A DNA stretch of 64,000 nucleotides, from the NCBI GenBank assembly GCA_016212105.1, contig JACRHJ010000007.1, positions 1 through 64,000 on the forward strand, given 5' to 3'. The position numbers and the translations under genes were made by a program. How positions within the stretch are numbered: the first letter of the stretch is position 1; every line of letters starts with the position of its first letter. This DNA comes from Nitrospirota bacterium (lineage in GTDB: Bacteria > Nitrospirota > JACRHJ01). Shown piece after piece: positions 36,410-39,787 of the stretch. The notes under the pieces were generated by a model. The model had not been told where the DNA came from, did not search any database, and saw nothing but the letters and a program-made list of their open reading frames with translations.

Positions 36410-37876
36410 CTACCCCGCCTTCACCACCCCAATCCGCCCGTCCTCGGACAGGCCGTCCACGAAACCGCCCAAGCCCGACACACCGGTCAGGTATGTAATC
36501 ACTTCTTCCGTAATCACCTCGCCCGGCACAAGCAAGGGAATGCCCGGCGGGTAGACCGTGACTATCTCGGACGACAGGCGCCCGGCAGAGCCCTCGACCG
36601 GCGCGTACTCGTGCGCGGCGAAGAAGGCCTCCCTCGGCGTCAGGCCGTGGACGATGTTGAACCTCGGCAGGACCATGCCTGTGGTGGACGTGCCGTGCCT
36701 TGCCTTGGACTTCTCCGAAATGCTCTCCAGCGCGTCCACAAGCAGGTCGAGGTCCTCGTTCCTGTCGCCAATGCTGACGATGACGAGGACATGGAACGGG
36801 TCGGACATCTCTACCTGTATCCCGTACTCGAGGTTCAGGGTCTGCGAGACCTCGTAGCCGGACAGACCCATGCCGCTGACGTTTATTGCAAGCTTCGTCT
36901 CGTCCAGGCCGCCGAGCCCCTTGGTCATAACCGTCTCTTTGTCCAGGCAGTAAAGCCCCGGTATTTTGTTGATGTGCTCGCGCGCGTCGCGCGCGAGGGT
37001 AAGCGTCTTCTCCAGAAGTTTTTCCCCTTCGGTCGCCATCTGCATACGCGCGAGGTCGAGCGAGGCCATCAGTATGTACGACGGGCTGGTCGTCTGGACG
37101 AACTTGAGGACGCCCGCGAGCGTCCCGGCGTCGAGCCGCCCGCCGCGTATGTGCATCATCGAGGCCTGTGTCATCCCGCCGATTATCTTGTGCGTGGACT
37201 GCACGCACATGTCCGCTCCGAGCGACAGGGCCGACGGCGGCAGCTCCGGATGGAAGCCCAAGTGCGGTCCGTGCGCCTCGTCCACGAGCACCGCCATGCC
37301 GCGCTCGTGCGCGAACGGTATAATCTTCGACAGGTCGGCGCAGATGCCGTAGTAGTTCGGGCTGGTGACGAACAGCGTCTTTATCCAGGGGTGCGCCTCG
37401 ATTGCCGCCTTGACCGCGTCGAAGCTGACGTTCATCGTCATCCGGAGCGCGATGTCCACCTCCGGGTGTATGTAATGCGGCGTCGCCCCGGCGAGGATCG
37501 TGCCAGCGACGACCGACTTGTGGCAGTTCCGGGCCATGAGGATGCCGCTGCCCGGCCCGCACGCGGACATCACCATCGCGTGGTTGCCGACGGACGTGCC
37601 GTTGACGAGGAAGAACGAGCGGTCGGCGCCGTATGCCTTCGCCGCCAGCTCCTGAGCCTCCTTTATGACCCCGGTCGGCCGCTGGAGGGAGTCCACCTCG
37701 TCCAGCGTCGTCAGGTCTATCGAGAAGATCTTGTGGCCGACGTACTTGACGAAGCGCGTGGCGATGCCCTTGCCGGACTTGTGGCCGGGCGTGTGGAAGG
37801 ATATCTTCCGCGCCTCCGCGAGCGAGACCATCGCGTCGAAGAGGGGGGTCTTGTACTGGGTCGGGTCTATGGGCAT
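36410..37876 (-). CDS. speA: Orn/Lys/Arg decarboxylase family, probable arginine decarboxylase
   Basis: A 488-aa fold-type I PLP enzyme. PLP-binding Lys is K230 in QSTHKIIGG, and the cofactor Asp/His cluster is VDEAHGPHLG (about residues 198-207). FHTPGHKSGKG at the N-terminus is typical of the basic amino-acid decarboxylases. It follows speD and speE on the same strand, so decarboxylation of arginine to agmatine for polyamine synthesis is inferred. Lysine or ornithine cannot be excluded. The start is ATG 37876 with AGGA about 11 bases upstream; a TTG at 37900 is less likely. Confidence 0.9.
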   Translation of the reverse strand: MPIDPTQYKTPLFDAMVSLAEARKISFHTPGHKSGKGIATRFVKYVGHKIFSIDLTTLDEVDSLQRPTGVIKEAQELAAKAYGADRSFFLVNGTSVGNHAMVMSACGPGSGILMARNCHKSVVAGTILAGATPHYIHPEVDIALRMTMNVSFDAVKAAIEAHPWIKTLFVTSPNYYGICADLSKIIPFAHERGMAVLVDEAHGPHLGFHPELPPSALSLGADMCVQSTHKIIGGMTQASMMHIRGGRLDAGTLAGVLKFVQTTSPSYILMASLDLARMQMATEGEKLLEKTLTLARDAREHINKIPGLYCLDKETVMTKGLGGLDETKLAINVSGMGLSGYEVSQTLNLEYGIQVEMSDPFHVLVIVSIGDRNEDLDLLVDALESISEKSKARHGTSTTGMVLPRFNIVHGLTPREAFFAAHEYAPVEGSAGRLSSEIVTVYPPGIPLLVPGEVITEEVITYLTGVSGLGGFVDGLSEDGRIGVVKAG

Positions 37877-37901: not shown

Positions 37902-37930
37902 AAGCGGCCCAGTTTTCACATGGGCCGCTT
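37902..37930 (-). terminator. Intrinsic terminator or attenuator between speE and speA
   Basis: Read on the minus strand, AAGCGGCCCA pairs perfectly with TGGGCCGCTT across a nine-base loop and is followed by TTTTTG. This lies 34 bases after the speE stop and about 26 bases before the speA start codon. It should end or reduce speD-speE transcription before speA. Confidence 0.8.
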
Positions 37931-37963
37931 CGGATTAAATCTGGGTTGCCGCGCGGCCACCCC

Positions 37964-38884
37964 TCAATTATACGTGAATATCGGCGCGTTGTCCTCTATA
38001 ATCAGCGTCTGGGCCTCGATGGCCTTGCGTATGTGCTTCGGGGTGGTCATGGAGTGCAGGTGGCACTCGCCGTCGTAGTACTTCAGCTCGCCATTTACGC
38101 GGCGGGCGATCATCTCGTCAATCTGGGCCGCCGTGAAGGCCCTCGGGTCGTTCTTCTTGGACGCCAGGGCGAAGCCCCACGGAAGCCCGAAGGACGGTAT
38201 GGCCGCCGGCATGGATACCACGTGCGGGAAGACCTCCTGCAAGGTCTTGTGCACGGCGGTAAGGTTCAGGAGCTTGCCGACCGCAGTCGTACCGGCCTGG
38301 AGCGCAATCGCGCCCTCGTCGGTCAGCCGGTCGTTTATCATCTCGTAGAACTCGCGCGTGTACAGAAGGTACGCGGGGCCCTCCTCGACCGGCTCCGAGA
38401 TGTCTATGATGATGACGTCGAACTTCTCGTCCGTCTCTTCCAGGTCGCGCCTCGCGTCGAGGAACTTCAGCTCGGTGCGCGGGTCGTCGAACGCGCCCGC
38501 GTGGTACTCGGGCAGAAGCTCCTTGCTCATCATCACGACTTCTTCGTCTATGTCCACCATGACCGCGCGCTCGACGGACTTGTGGCGGAGCGCCTCCCTG
38601 AGCGTCGCGCCCTCGCCGCCGCCTACGATGTAGACCTTCTTGGGCTCCGGGTGCATCAGCATCGCGGGGTGTACGAGGACCTCGTGGTATATGAACTCGT
38701 CCACCTCGGAGGACTGCATCTTGTAGTCGAGGACGAGGCAGCGGCCGTAGGAGCCGGTCTGCATTATCTCCATCTGCTGAAAAGGCGTCTTCTTCGAGTA
38801 CAGTATGGAGTTGATGCCGTGCATGTGACCCTCTTCGGGGGTCAGGTAATCAAGGAACCATTTGGAGTTCTTGGGTCCTGGCAT
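37964..38884 (-). CDS. speE: Polyamine aminopropyltransferase (spermidine synthase)
   Basis: SpeE transfers aminopropyl from decarboxylated SAM to putrescine. The 306-aa protein has YIVGGGEGATLREALRHKSV as cofactor site, VDIDEEVV, and the catalytic Asp in IIIDISEP. It overlaps the end of speD by 35 bases and lacks strong separation, so the two are one transcription unit. ATG 38884. Confidence 0.95.
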   Translation of the reverse strand: MPGPKNSKWFLDYLTPEEGHMHGINSILYSKKTPFQQMEIMQTGSYGRCLVLDYKMQSSEVDEFIYHEVLVHPAMLMHPEPKKVYIVGGGEGATLREALRHKSVERAVMVDIDEEVVMMSKELLPEYHAGAFDDPRTELKFLDARRDLEETDEKFDVIIIDISEPVEEGPAYLLYTREFYEMINDRLTDEGAIALQAGTTAVGKLLNLTAVHKTLQEVFPHVVSMPAAIPSFGLPWGFALASKKNDPRAFTAAQIDEMIARRVNGELKYYDGECHLHSMTTPKHIRKAIEAQTLIIEDNAPIFTYN

Positions 38885-39281
38885 GGTTTTCCTCCTCCTG
38901 TTCCGGCTTGTGGGGGAGCTTCTCGCCGCCCGTGGACAGGATGCCGCGCTTCATCTCGACAAGCGACATGTTCTTGCATTCGAACCGCTCGGCCAGGTAC
39001 GCTGCGGCGACTTCGGGTTTTATAAGGTCTCCGCAGGTGAACACGTCCACCGCGGCGTAGCCATACTCCGGCCACGTGTGTATGGACAGGTGGGACTCGG
39101 CTATGATGACCATGCCGCTTATCCCGAACGGGTTGAACTCGTGAAACGCTACCTCGACCACGGTCGCCTTGGCCTCGTTGGCCGCCGCCACCATGGCGCT
39201 CTGGACCTCGTAGAGGTCCTTAAGGATTTCCGAATTGCAGTCTTTCATCTCGACGAGCAGATGTTTACCTAAAGCGTGCAA
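38850..39281 (-). CDS. speD: S-adenosylmethionine decarboxylase proenzyme, prokaryotic SpeH type
   Basis: This enzyme self-cleaves to form a pyruvoyl group and decarboxylates SAM, giving the aminopropyl donor used by SpeE. The 143-aa protein starts at TTG 39281 (HALGKHLLVEMKDC), as the short SpeH family does; AGGAGG lies nine bases upstream. The processing site is ES|HLSIHTWPE (E62-S63), with the catalytic Cys in FTCGD (C83). An open frame extends upstream to 39344 but runs through the leader hairpin. The last 35 bases overlap speE. Confidence 0.95.
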   Translation of the reverse strand: MHALGKHLLVEMKDCNSEILKDLYEVQSAMVAAANEAKATVVEVAFHEFNPFGISGMVIIAESHLSIHTWPEYGYAAVDVFTCGDLIKPEVAAAYLAERFECKNMSLVEMKRGILSTGGEKLPHKPEQEEENHARTQELQMVP

Positions 39282-39310: not shown

Positions 39311-39337
39311 GAGGACGGCCTTCATGAAACCGCCCTC
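39311..39337 (-). promoter_or_regulatory. speD: Leader hairpin near the speD ribosome site
   Basis: Minus-strand GAGGGCGG (39337-39330) pairs with CCGTCCTC (39318-39311), with one G-U pair, across an 11-base loop, about 30 bases before the speD start codon. It lies between the terminator-like hairpin and the ribosome site, so it may control access to either. Confidence 0.6.
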
Positions 39338-39344
39338 GTGACAT

Positions 39345-39391
39345 AAAAAATGGCGTGCGACTCCCCTAAAACACGGGGCAGTCTCCACGCC
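39345..39391 (-). promoter_or_regulatory. speD: Terminator-like hairpin in the speD leader
   Basis: On the minus strand GGCGTG, GACT and CCCC pair in order with GGGG, AGTC and CACGCC (39391-39352), a compound stem with a GA/G internal loop and a bulged G. It is followed by A and six Ts (39350-39345). It lies about 65 bases before speD, with no other gene upstream on that strand. It looks like an attenuator or riboswitch expression platform. Confidence 0.65.
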
Positions 39392-39656
39392 TGCGCATTG
39401 CCAGAACTGTCTTTACCAGGTTACAAAGCAATAAAGCCAGGCCGGACCGTATAGTCCTTATGTAAATTCATATACATACAGCAGCCTCGCCTTGATTGTT
39501 GATAAAATGCACTTGCAACCGGTGTAGAACTATATAGATTTTTTTCAAAAATGCAAGAGAAAAATGAATGCGGGGCTCATTATCTCCGGTATCCGGGAGT
39601 TGTTCAAGGATATTGATAGTTTAGCACTGGTTTCCGAATGTGTAAAGCGGGGGAAG

Positions 39657-39787
39657 AAACCTACCCCCACCCCAGCCCTCCCCCTTGCAGGGGGCGGGAG
39701 ATTTGTCGAGGCCGGTGTTATATATAATTCTTACTCGAATCTTCCCCTCCCTGCATAGGGAGGGGATAAGAGGGAAGGGTTGGTTTT
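39657..39787. mobile_element. MITE-like element, reverse orientation
   Basis: About 130 bp, from AACCTACCCCCACCCCAGCC to GGGAAGGGTTGGTT, bounded by imperfect ACCWACCC / GGGTTGGT ends. The inside is palindromic (CCTCCCCCTTGCAGGGGGCG and CCTCCCTGCATAGGGAGGGG). It is non-coding, and the same unit occurs five more times in the last 10 kb. The rest of 39392-39939 is AT-rich, with no gene. Confidence 0.7.

Follow-up and report, generated by a model that had tools for sequence, protein, structure and literature searches.

A conserved leader terminator ahead of speD, possibly switched by ribosomes on a short leader reading frame

In the window, the whole stretch of 64,000 nucleotides of DNA analysed here, speD is preceded on the minus strand by a leader of about 240 nt, as measured from the predicted start site, and it is very likely that this element, in one form or another, is a leader terminator that acts on speD. 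The explanation that we favour, to which we give an even chance, is a cis-acting transcription attenuator of speD-speE that is switched by ribosomes on a leader ORF. The supported parts of this picture are the terminator, an upstream helix termed P_A, the fact that both are conserved through compensatory changes, and the operon context. The promoter with its start site, the translation of the ORF and the antiterminator are predicted, and we infer that the signal would be a polyamine, its precursor or SAM. Coordinates are collected in Table 1.

Table 1. The speD leader and its operon: features and the evidence for each (positions in the window)
Feature	Position	Strand	Composition and evidence
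Predicted promoter	39529..39556	minus	TTGCAT-16-TATAGT; alignment with TTGCAA-16-TATA[G/T]T in L019, L024 and L111
Conserved hairpin P_A	39433..39493	minus	39493-39482 (AAGGCGAGGCUG) pairs with 39444-39433 (CGGCCUGGCUUU); covariation, hold-out search
Leader ORF (predicted)	39421..39477	minus	MYMNLHKDYTVRPGFIAL, then stop; Shine-Dalgarno GGCGAGG 7 nt before ATG; aligned with the sister ORF
Candidate antiterminator	39389..39442	minus	39442-39438 with 39393-39389, 39432-39427 with 39402-39397; by inspection
Intrinsic terminator	stem 39391-39352, A39351, T39350-39345	minus	sequence, folding, terminator scan, covariation
Second hairpin	39311..39337	minus	GAGGGCGGTTT-CATGA-AGGCCGTCCTC; sequence
speD, S-adenosylmethionine decarboxylase	38850..39281	minus	AdoMet_dc PF02675 (1e-41), TIGR03330
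speE, spermidine synthase	37964..38884	minus	PF01564, NF002010
Orn/Lys/Arg decarboxylase	36410..37876	minus	PF01276

A terminator at the head of a polyamine operon

Downstream of speD, on the same strand, lie speE and a gene for an Orn/Lys/Arg decarboxylase. The start codon TTG (39281-39279) and its Shine-Dalgarno sequence AGGAGG (39296-39291) are where an earlier note on this DNA had placed them; an alternative start of SpeD at ATG 39344, where the terminator ends, is unlikely, as it has no Shine-Dalgarno sequence and the relatives begin at L[H/Q]ALG. The compound GC-rich stem, made on the minus strand of GGCGTG-GA-GACT-G-CCCC and GGGG-AGTC-G-CACGCC and followed by an A and six Ts, likewise agrees base for base with what that note had described. 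A uniform scan across the 64 kb finds 12 sites that combine a hairpin with a T-run, and this one is the most stable of them (-25.9 kcal/mol). A simple terminator scan did not pick up 39391-39345, presumably because the stem is compound. Folding of the 129-nt hairpin region gives a z of -2.5, with 3 of 200 shuffles equally good, and that of the whole leader a z of -3.65, with none in 200.

As expected of an attenuator, this GC-rich hairpin with its T-run stands between a predicted promoter and the first gene, on the coding strand. The gene upstream of the leader is divergent in all five genomes, though its identity differs, and the terminator can therefore act only on transcripts begun in the speD leader; a role as terminator of that upstream gene is ruled out. 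Promoter prediction places the start of transcription near 39523. The earlier note had seen a possible undoing of its proposal in transcription that begins downstream of the hairpin; a search turned up no promoter-like site between the terminator and speD, and a conserved promoter-like element is found upstream. Elements of the TTTTTTCTTGCAA type also precede speD in other families. Farther upstream of the promoter, GC-rich repetitive or inverted stretches (CCCTCCC...GGGAGGGG; CTCCCGCCCCCTGCAAGGGGGAGGGCTGGGGTGGGGGT) of REP-like appearance occupy 39660-39780 of the window.

The second hairpin exists at 39337-39311 as the earlier note had it, and its membership in the conserved element has to be given up: nothing corresponds to it in the sister genus (L019, L023, L024, L111), where the spacer from terminator to speD varies in length and sequence. 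We dropped it as a component of the switch. A further terminator lies between speE and the decarboxylase gene (37903-37932 of the window, minus strand; L081:4548-4585). Together with its flank (GCGGCCC...GGGCCG, TTTTTGATTTA) it is kept in L081 and L143 despite an inserted HicB-like ORF, and it is missing directly before the decarboxylase gene in L142 and L144. With a terminator in just two of four genomes, the idea of a second attenuator was abandoned and the site treated as an ordinary terminator.

Conservation in a sister genus

The window's genome shares its class with only five others, which all belong to a single sister genus, and four of these retain the region upstream of speD (L019, L023, L024, L111). 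Their leaders follow the same order, with a promoter-like element, a short ORF that has a strong Shine-Dalgarno sequence, and then a GC-rich hairpin and its T-run; the promoter-like element (T-run, TTGCAA-16-TATANT) was read in L019, L024 and L111. Between the two genera speD is about 75% identical at the DNA level. A covariance model termed R2, made from the four sister-genus leaders alone with the window held out, matches the window's leader over its full length (39495-39342) at 31.4 bits (E 1e-6), against 16.3 bits for a sequence-only model of the same four rows, and this match is the single one across the 3-Mb genome. When 396 genomes of the phylum are searched with R1, the two-genus model, just five give matches, and these five belong to one family.

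In the joint alignment, which is fitted to the model and comprises five sequences, four of them close to each other, standard pairs fill 94% of the pair cells and 11 pairs have changed on both sides, and no shuffle among 500 and no slid control approaches these figures. Covariation is thus present in the homologous leaders, where its lack would, according to the earlier note, have spoken against a regulatory structure. The terminator helix (helix 5) is 95% paired, with five pairs changed on both sides. In P_A (helix 1) 98% of the cells are paired, with one G-C to C-G exchange (C39489-G39437) and three one-sided changes. At the level of sequence comparison, compensatory changes therefore support two helices, the terminator and P_A upstream of it, and the element is kept in relatives in the manner expected of an attenuator. 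The hold-out search is a cleaner test of conservation than the pair counts, and conservation is a stronger argument than the folding statistics.

A leader ORF among the switching strands

P_A encloses the start of the leader ORF and buries its ribosome-binding site, pairing the Shine-Dalgarno region with a strand, CGGCCUGSCUUU, near the end of the ORF. This helix, the ORF with its buried start and the promoter, some 130 nt further upstream, were all lacking from the earlier note. The sister-genus ORF reads MSTSLHIKSALLG[L/R]PFR before its stop, and its ATG and Shine-Dalgarno sequence align with those of the window's ORF; the length is 17-18 codons across the genera, and 18 in the window. Codons 5-6 are TTA-CAT in both genera, TTA being rare (6 of 826 leucine codons in 15 long ORFs of the window) yet kept at codon 5. 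A comparable ORF with a Shine-Dalgarno sequence arises in 6% of shuffled leaders for the window and in 8.5% for L111, so that the presence of the leader ORF is suggestive, not proven. What is found is an ORF, predicted to be translatable, whose Shine-Dalgarno sequence and reading frame overlap the switching strands, as a ribosome-mediated attenuator would have it.

Three substitutions separate the four sister ORFs, two synonymous and one nonsynonymous. Between the genera the peptides diverge after residue 6 and the reading frame across CGGCCUGSCUUU shifts; a specific nascent peptide is therefore not conserved. A conserved C-terminal peptide, the mark of arrest peptides of the SpeFL or TnaC type, was not found in comparing the window (VRPGFIAL before the stop) with the sister genus (ALLG[L/R]PFR before the stop). 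What selection maintains seems to be the RNA of the leader and perhaps the existence of a translated start.

Folding of the nascent transcript with the ribosome footprint masked out indicates how the strands may exchange partners. Once an initiating ribosome has opened P_A, the ORF strand (GCGCUCCUCGG) is predicted to base-pair with the terminator's 5' arm with a probability of 0.79-0.88 in the four sister leaders, and a ribosome placed on codon 8 abolishes this pairing in all four. Without a ribosome the sister-leader probability ranges from 0.02 to 0.75, L019 already favouring the antiterminator (0.75). The pairing that corresponds to it in the window (GCCUG/CAGGC plus AUUGCU/GGCAAU) is weak, reaching 0.24 with P_A masked, and the energy of the duplex is not significantly above that of shuffled controls, which makes the antiterminator the least secure part of the proposal. 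For the sister genus, this modelling makes a mutually exclusive antiterminator likely.

Attenuation and its rivals

Under ribosome-coupled attenuation, transcription would start about 240 nt before speD and the intrinsic terminator (39391-39345) could halt it ahead of the gene. As long as P_A is formed, the CGGCCUGSCUUU strand would be unavailable as antiterminator, the terminator would form and the operon would be off. Loading of ribosomes on the leader ORF would open P_A and free a part of the ORF RNA to pair with the terminator's 5' arm, resulting in read-through, while a ribosome slowed in mid-ORF would block the antiterminator pairing.

The earlier note had left the choice between attenuation and a riboswitch. 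Its first term is well supported, by the covariation and by the promoter-like site upstream; the second fares less well, having no Rfam family to match. As a riboswitch, P_A with its conserved apical part (UAUGNRUAYGARYUUACAUA) would serve as the aptamer, with spermidine, another polyamine or SAM as ligand; the ligand would stabilize P_A and block the antiterminator, turning speD off, and the ORF would be incidental. We regard this as somewhat unlikely. In its favour, the conservation of P_A and of the apical sequence goes beyond the peptide reading frame, the sister-genus leader is near-invariant over some 100 nt while the terminator loops drift, and spermidine riboswitches with intrinsic terminators do exist (PMC10853860). 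However, the 5' portion that the sister genus conserves is absent from the window, and the conserved bases coincide with the Shine-Dalgarno sequence, the ATG and the ORF. Rfam at gathering level returned no riboswitch, SAM-I and the other SAM families included, for the window and 20 related speD loci (a tRNA was returned), and at E up to 5 the leader gave chance matches only.

That a regulatory protein binds the P_A hairpin and chooses between terminator and read-through would fit a hairpin conserved together with its apical sequence, but there is no candidate protein, and the genome lacks a further copy of the element such as would hint at a regulon; we consider this quite improbable. We are equally doubtful of a partial terminator without regulation, whose only effect would be to fix the level of speD-speE. 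In the window, where the antiterminator is weak, P_A and the terminator can coexist, as such a device would allow; yet P_A, which a plain terminator does not need, is conserved along with it, with compensatory changes. Ribosome-coupled attenuation is the reading that we retain.

Other speD leaders of the phylum

Across the phylum speD leaders differ by family. In the family f10 (L117-L134; also L028-L030, L135-L139) an ORF of about 43-50 codons, with a Shine-Dalgarno sequence, an unconserved N-terminus and the invariant end LxxVWPKGFGLT before the stop, terminates 24-31 nt ahead of speD. The pattern WPKGFGLT occurs in 18 of 296 genomes, all f10 and once in each, and never in the reversed control; it is present in each of the six f10 genomes for which the position of speD was already known. 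The motif itself is fixed by the search pattern; in all 18 ORFs the stop directly follows the T, and most wobble positions vary. This peptide was absent from the protein families and the literature searched. From its sequence it is a candidate arrest peptide regulating AdoMet decarboxylase, and the arrested ribosome would cover the speD ribosome-binding site. An arrest motif shared by the window, the sister genus and f10 (VRPGFIAL, GLPFR, VWPKGFGLT) was considered and rejected, the three being loosely alike and at unequal distances from the stop.

The family f5 (L016, L017, L018, L020, L021, L025, L026, L088, L092, L095) has instead a covarying three-helix RNA (GGAGGCGGTGCTCGC ... GCGGGCGGAGAAGGAGG) in the last 165 nt or so before speD, with neither a terminator nor an Rfam match; it is a candidate translational, riboswitch-like element. 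Many speD transcripts of the Thermodesulfovibrionales type (L005, L014, L037-L053, L058-L071 and others) carry a small hairpin of variable sequence right after the predicted start site (for example AGGAGCGGTTGCTCCTT), 30-60 nt upstream of speD, and then a strong Shine-Dalgarno sequence. At other loci (L002, L004, L006, L009, L011, L035, L036, L054, L057, L087, L096, L100) a AAGGAGGTGA-like site, close to the full complement of the anti-Shine-Dalgarno, lies 50-90 nt upstream of speD with no ORF evidently starting there, and is perhaps a standby ribosome site or the sign of an unusual start codon. The f10 and f5 leaders lend support to the view that speD is controlled by its leader throughout the phylum, but each is an element of its own.

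Feedback control of S-adenosylmethionine decarboxylase is textbook regulation, for which eukaryotes use upstream ORFs. It is tempting, if still speculative, to propose that across the phylum ribosomes on small upstream ORFs report polyamine status and in this way set SpeD synthesis, through intrinsic-terminator attenuation in the window's family and through the C-terminally conserved arrest peptide LxxVWPKGFGLT (ending at the stop) in f10. If this were true, ribosome-on-uORF control of speD would be a bacterial counterpart, independently evolved, of the control that uORFs exert on AdoMet decarboxylase in animals and plants. The speD leader of the window, covarying and uncatalogued, lends itself to termination assays in vitro and to reporter tests, and with the other leaders of the phylum translational polyamine sensing can be tested directly.

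Relation to known systems

Ribosome-mediated attenuators of the trp type combine a leader ORF, alternative hairpins and an intrinsic terminator, all of which the speD leader appears to share. It differs from them in having no run of control codons and in burying the ribosome-binding site of its ORF within a conserved helix. In the open-access literature searched, no comparable bacterial speD attenuator or leader peptide was found other than the Gram-positive spermidine riboswitch. This variant of SAM-I, established in a few Gram-positive genera (PMC10853860), also controls polyamine genes with an intrinsic terminator; however, it has no described leader ORF and belongs to other phyla, and its SAM-I fold was not found in the speD leader. 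Control of a polyamine gene by a leader ORF is established for speF and orf34 (SpeFL) of Salmonella and E. coli, with the involvement of Rho (PMC6386406). Here the likeness extends to alternative RNA structures (translation of the speD leader ORF being predicted), whereas speF relies on Rho-dependent termination and sequestration of the ribosome-binding site, has no intrinsic terminator and differs in gene, peptide and RNA. Control of mdtJI by the uORF mdtU in the mdtUJI operon of E. coli is supported, again with Rho (PMC7815308); it shares with the speD leader a spermidine-linked gene, a uORF and premature termination, but it concerns an efflux pump, depends on Rho, is induced by spermidine and bears no visible sequence relation. 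In sequence and in structure the speD leader matches none of the speF, mdtUJI and spermidine-riboswitch systems; in logic it resembles them.
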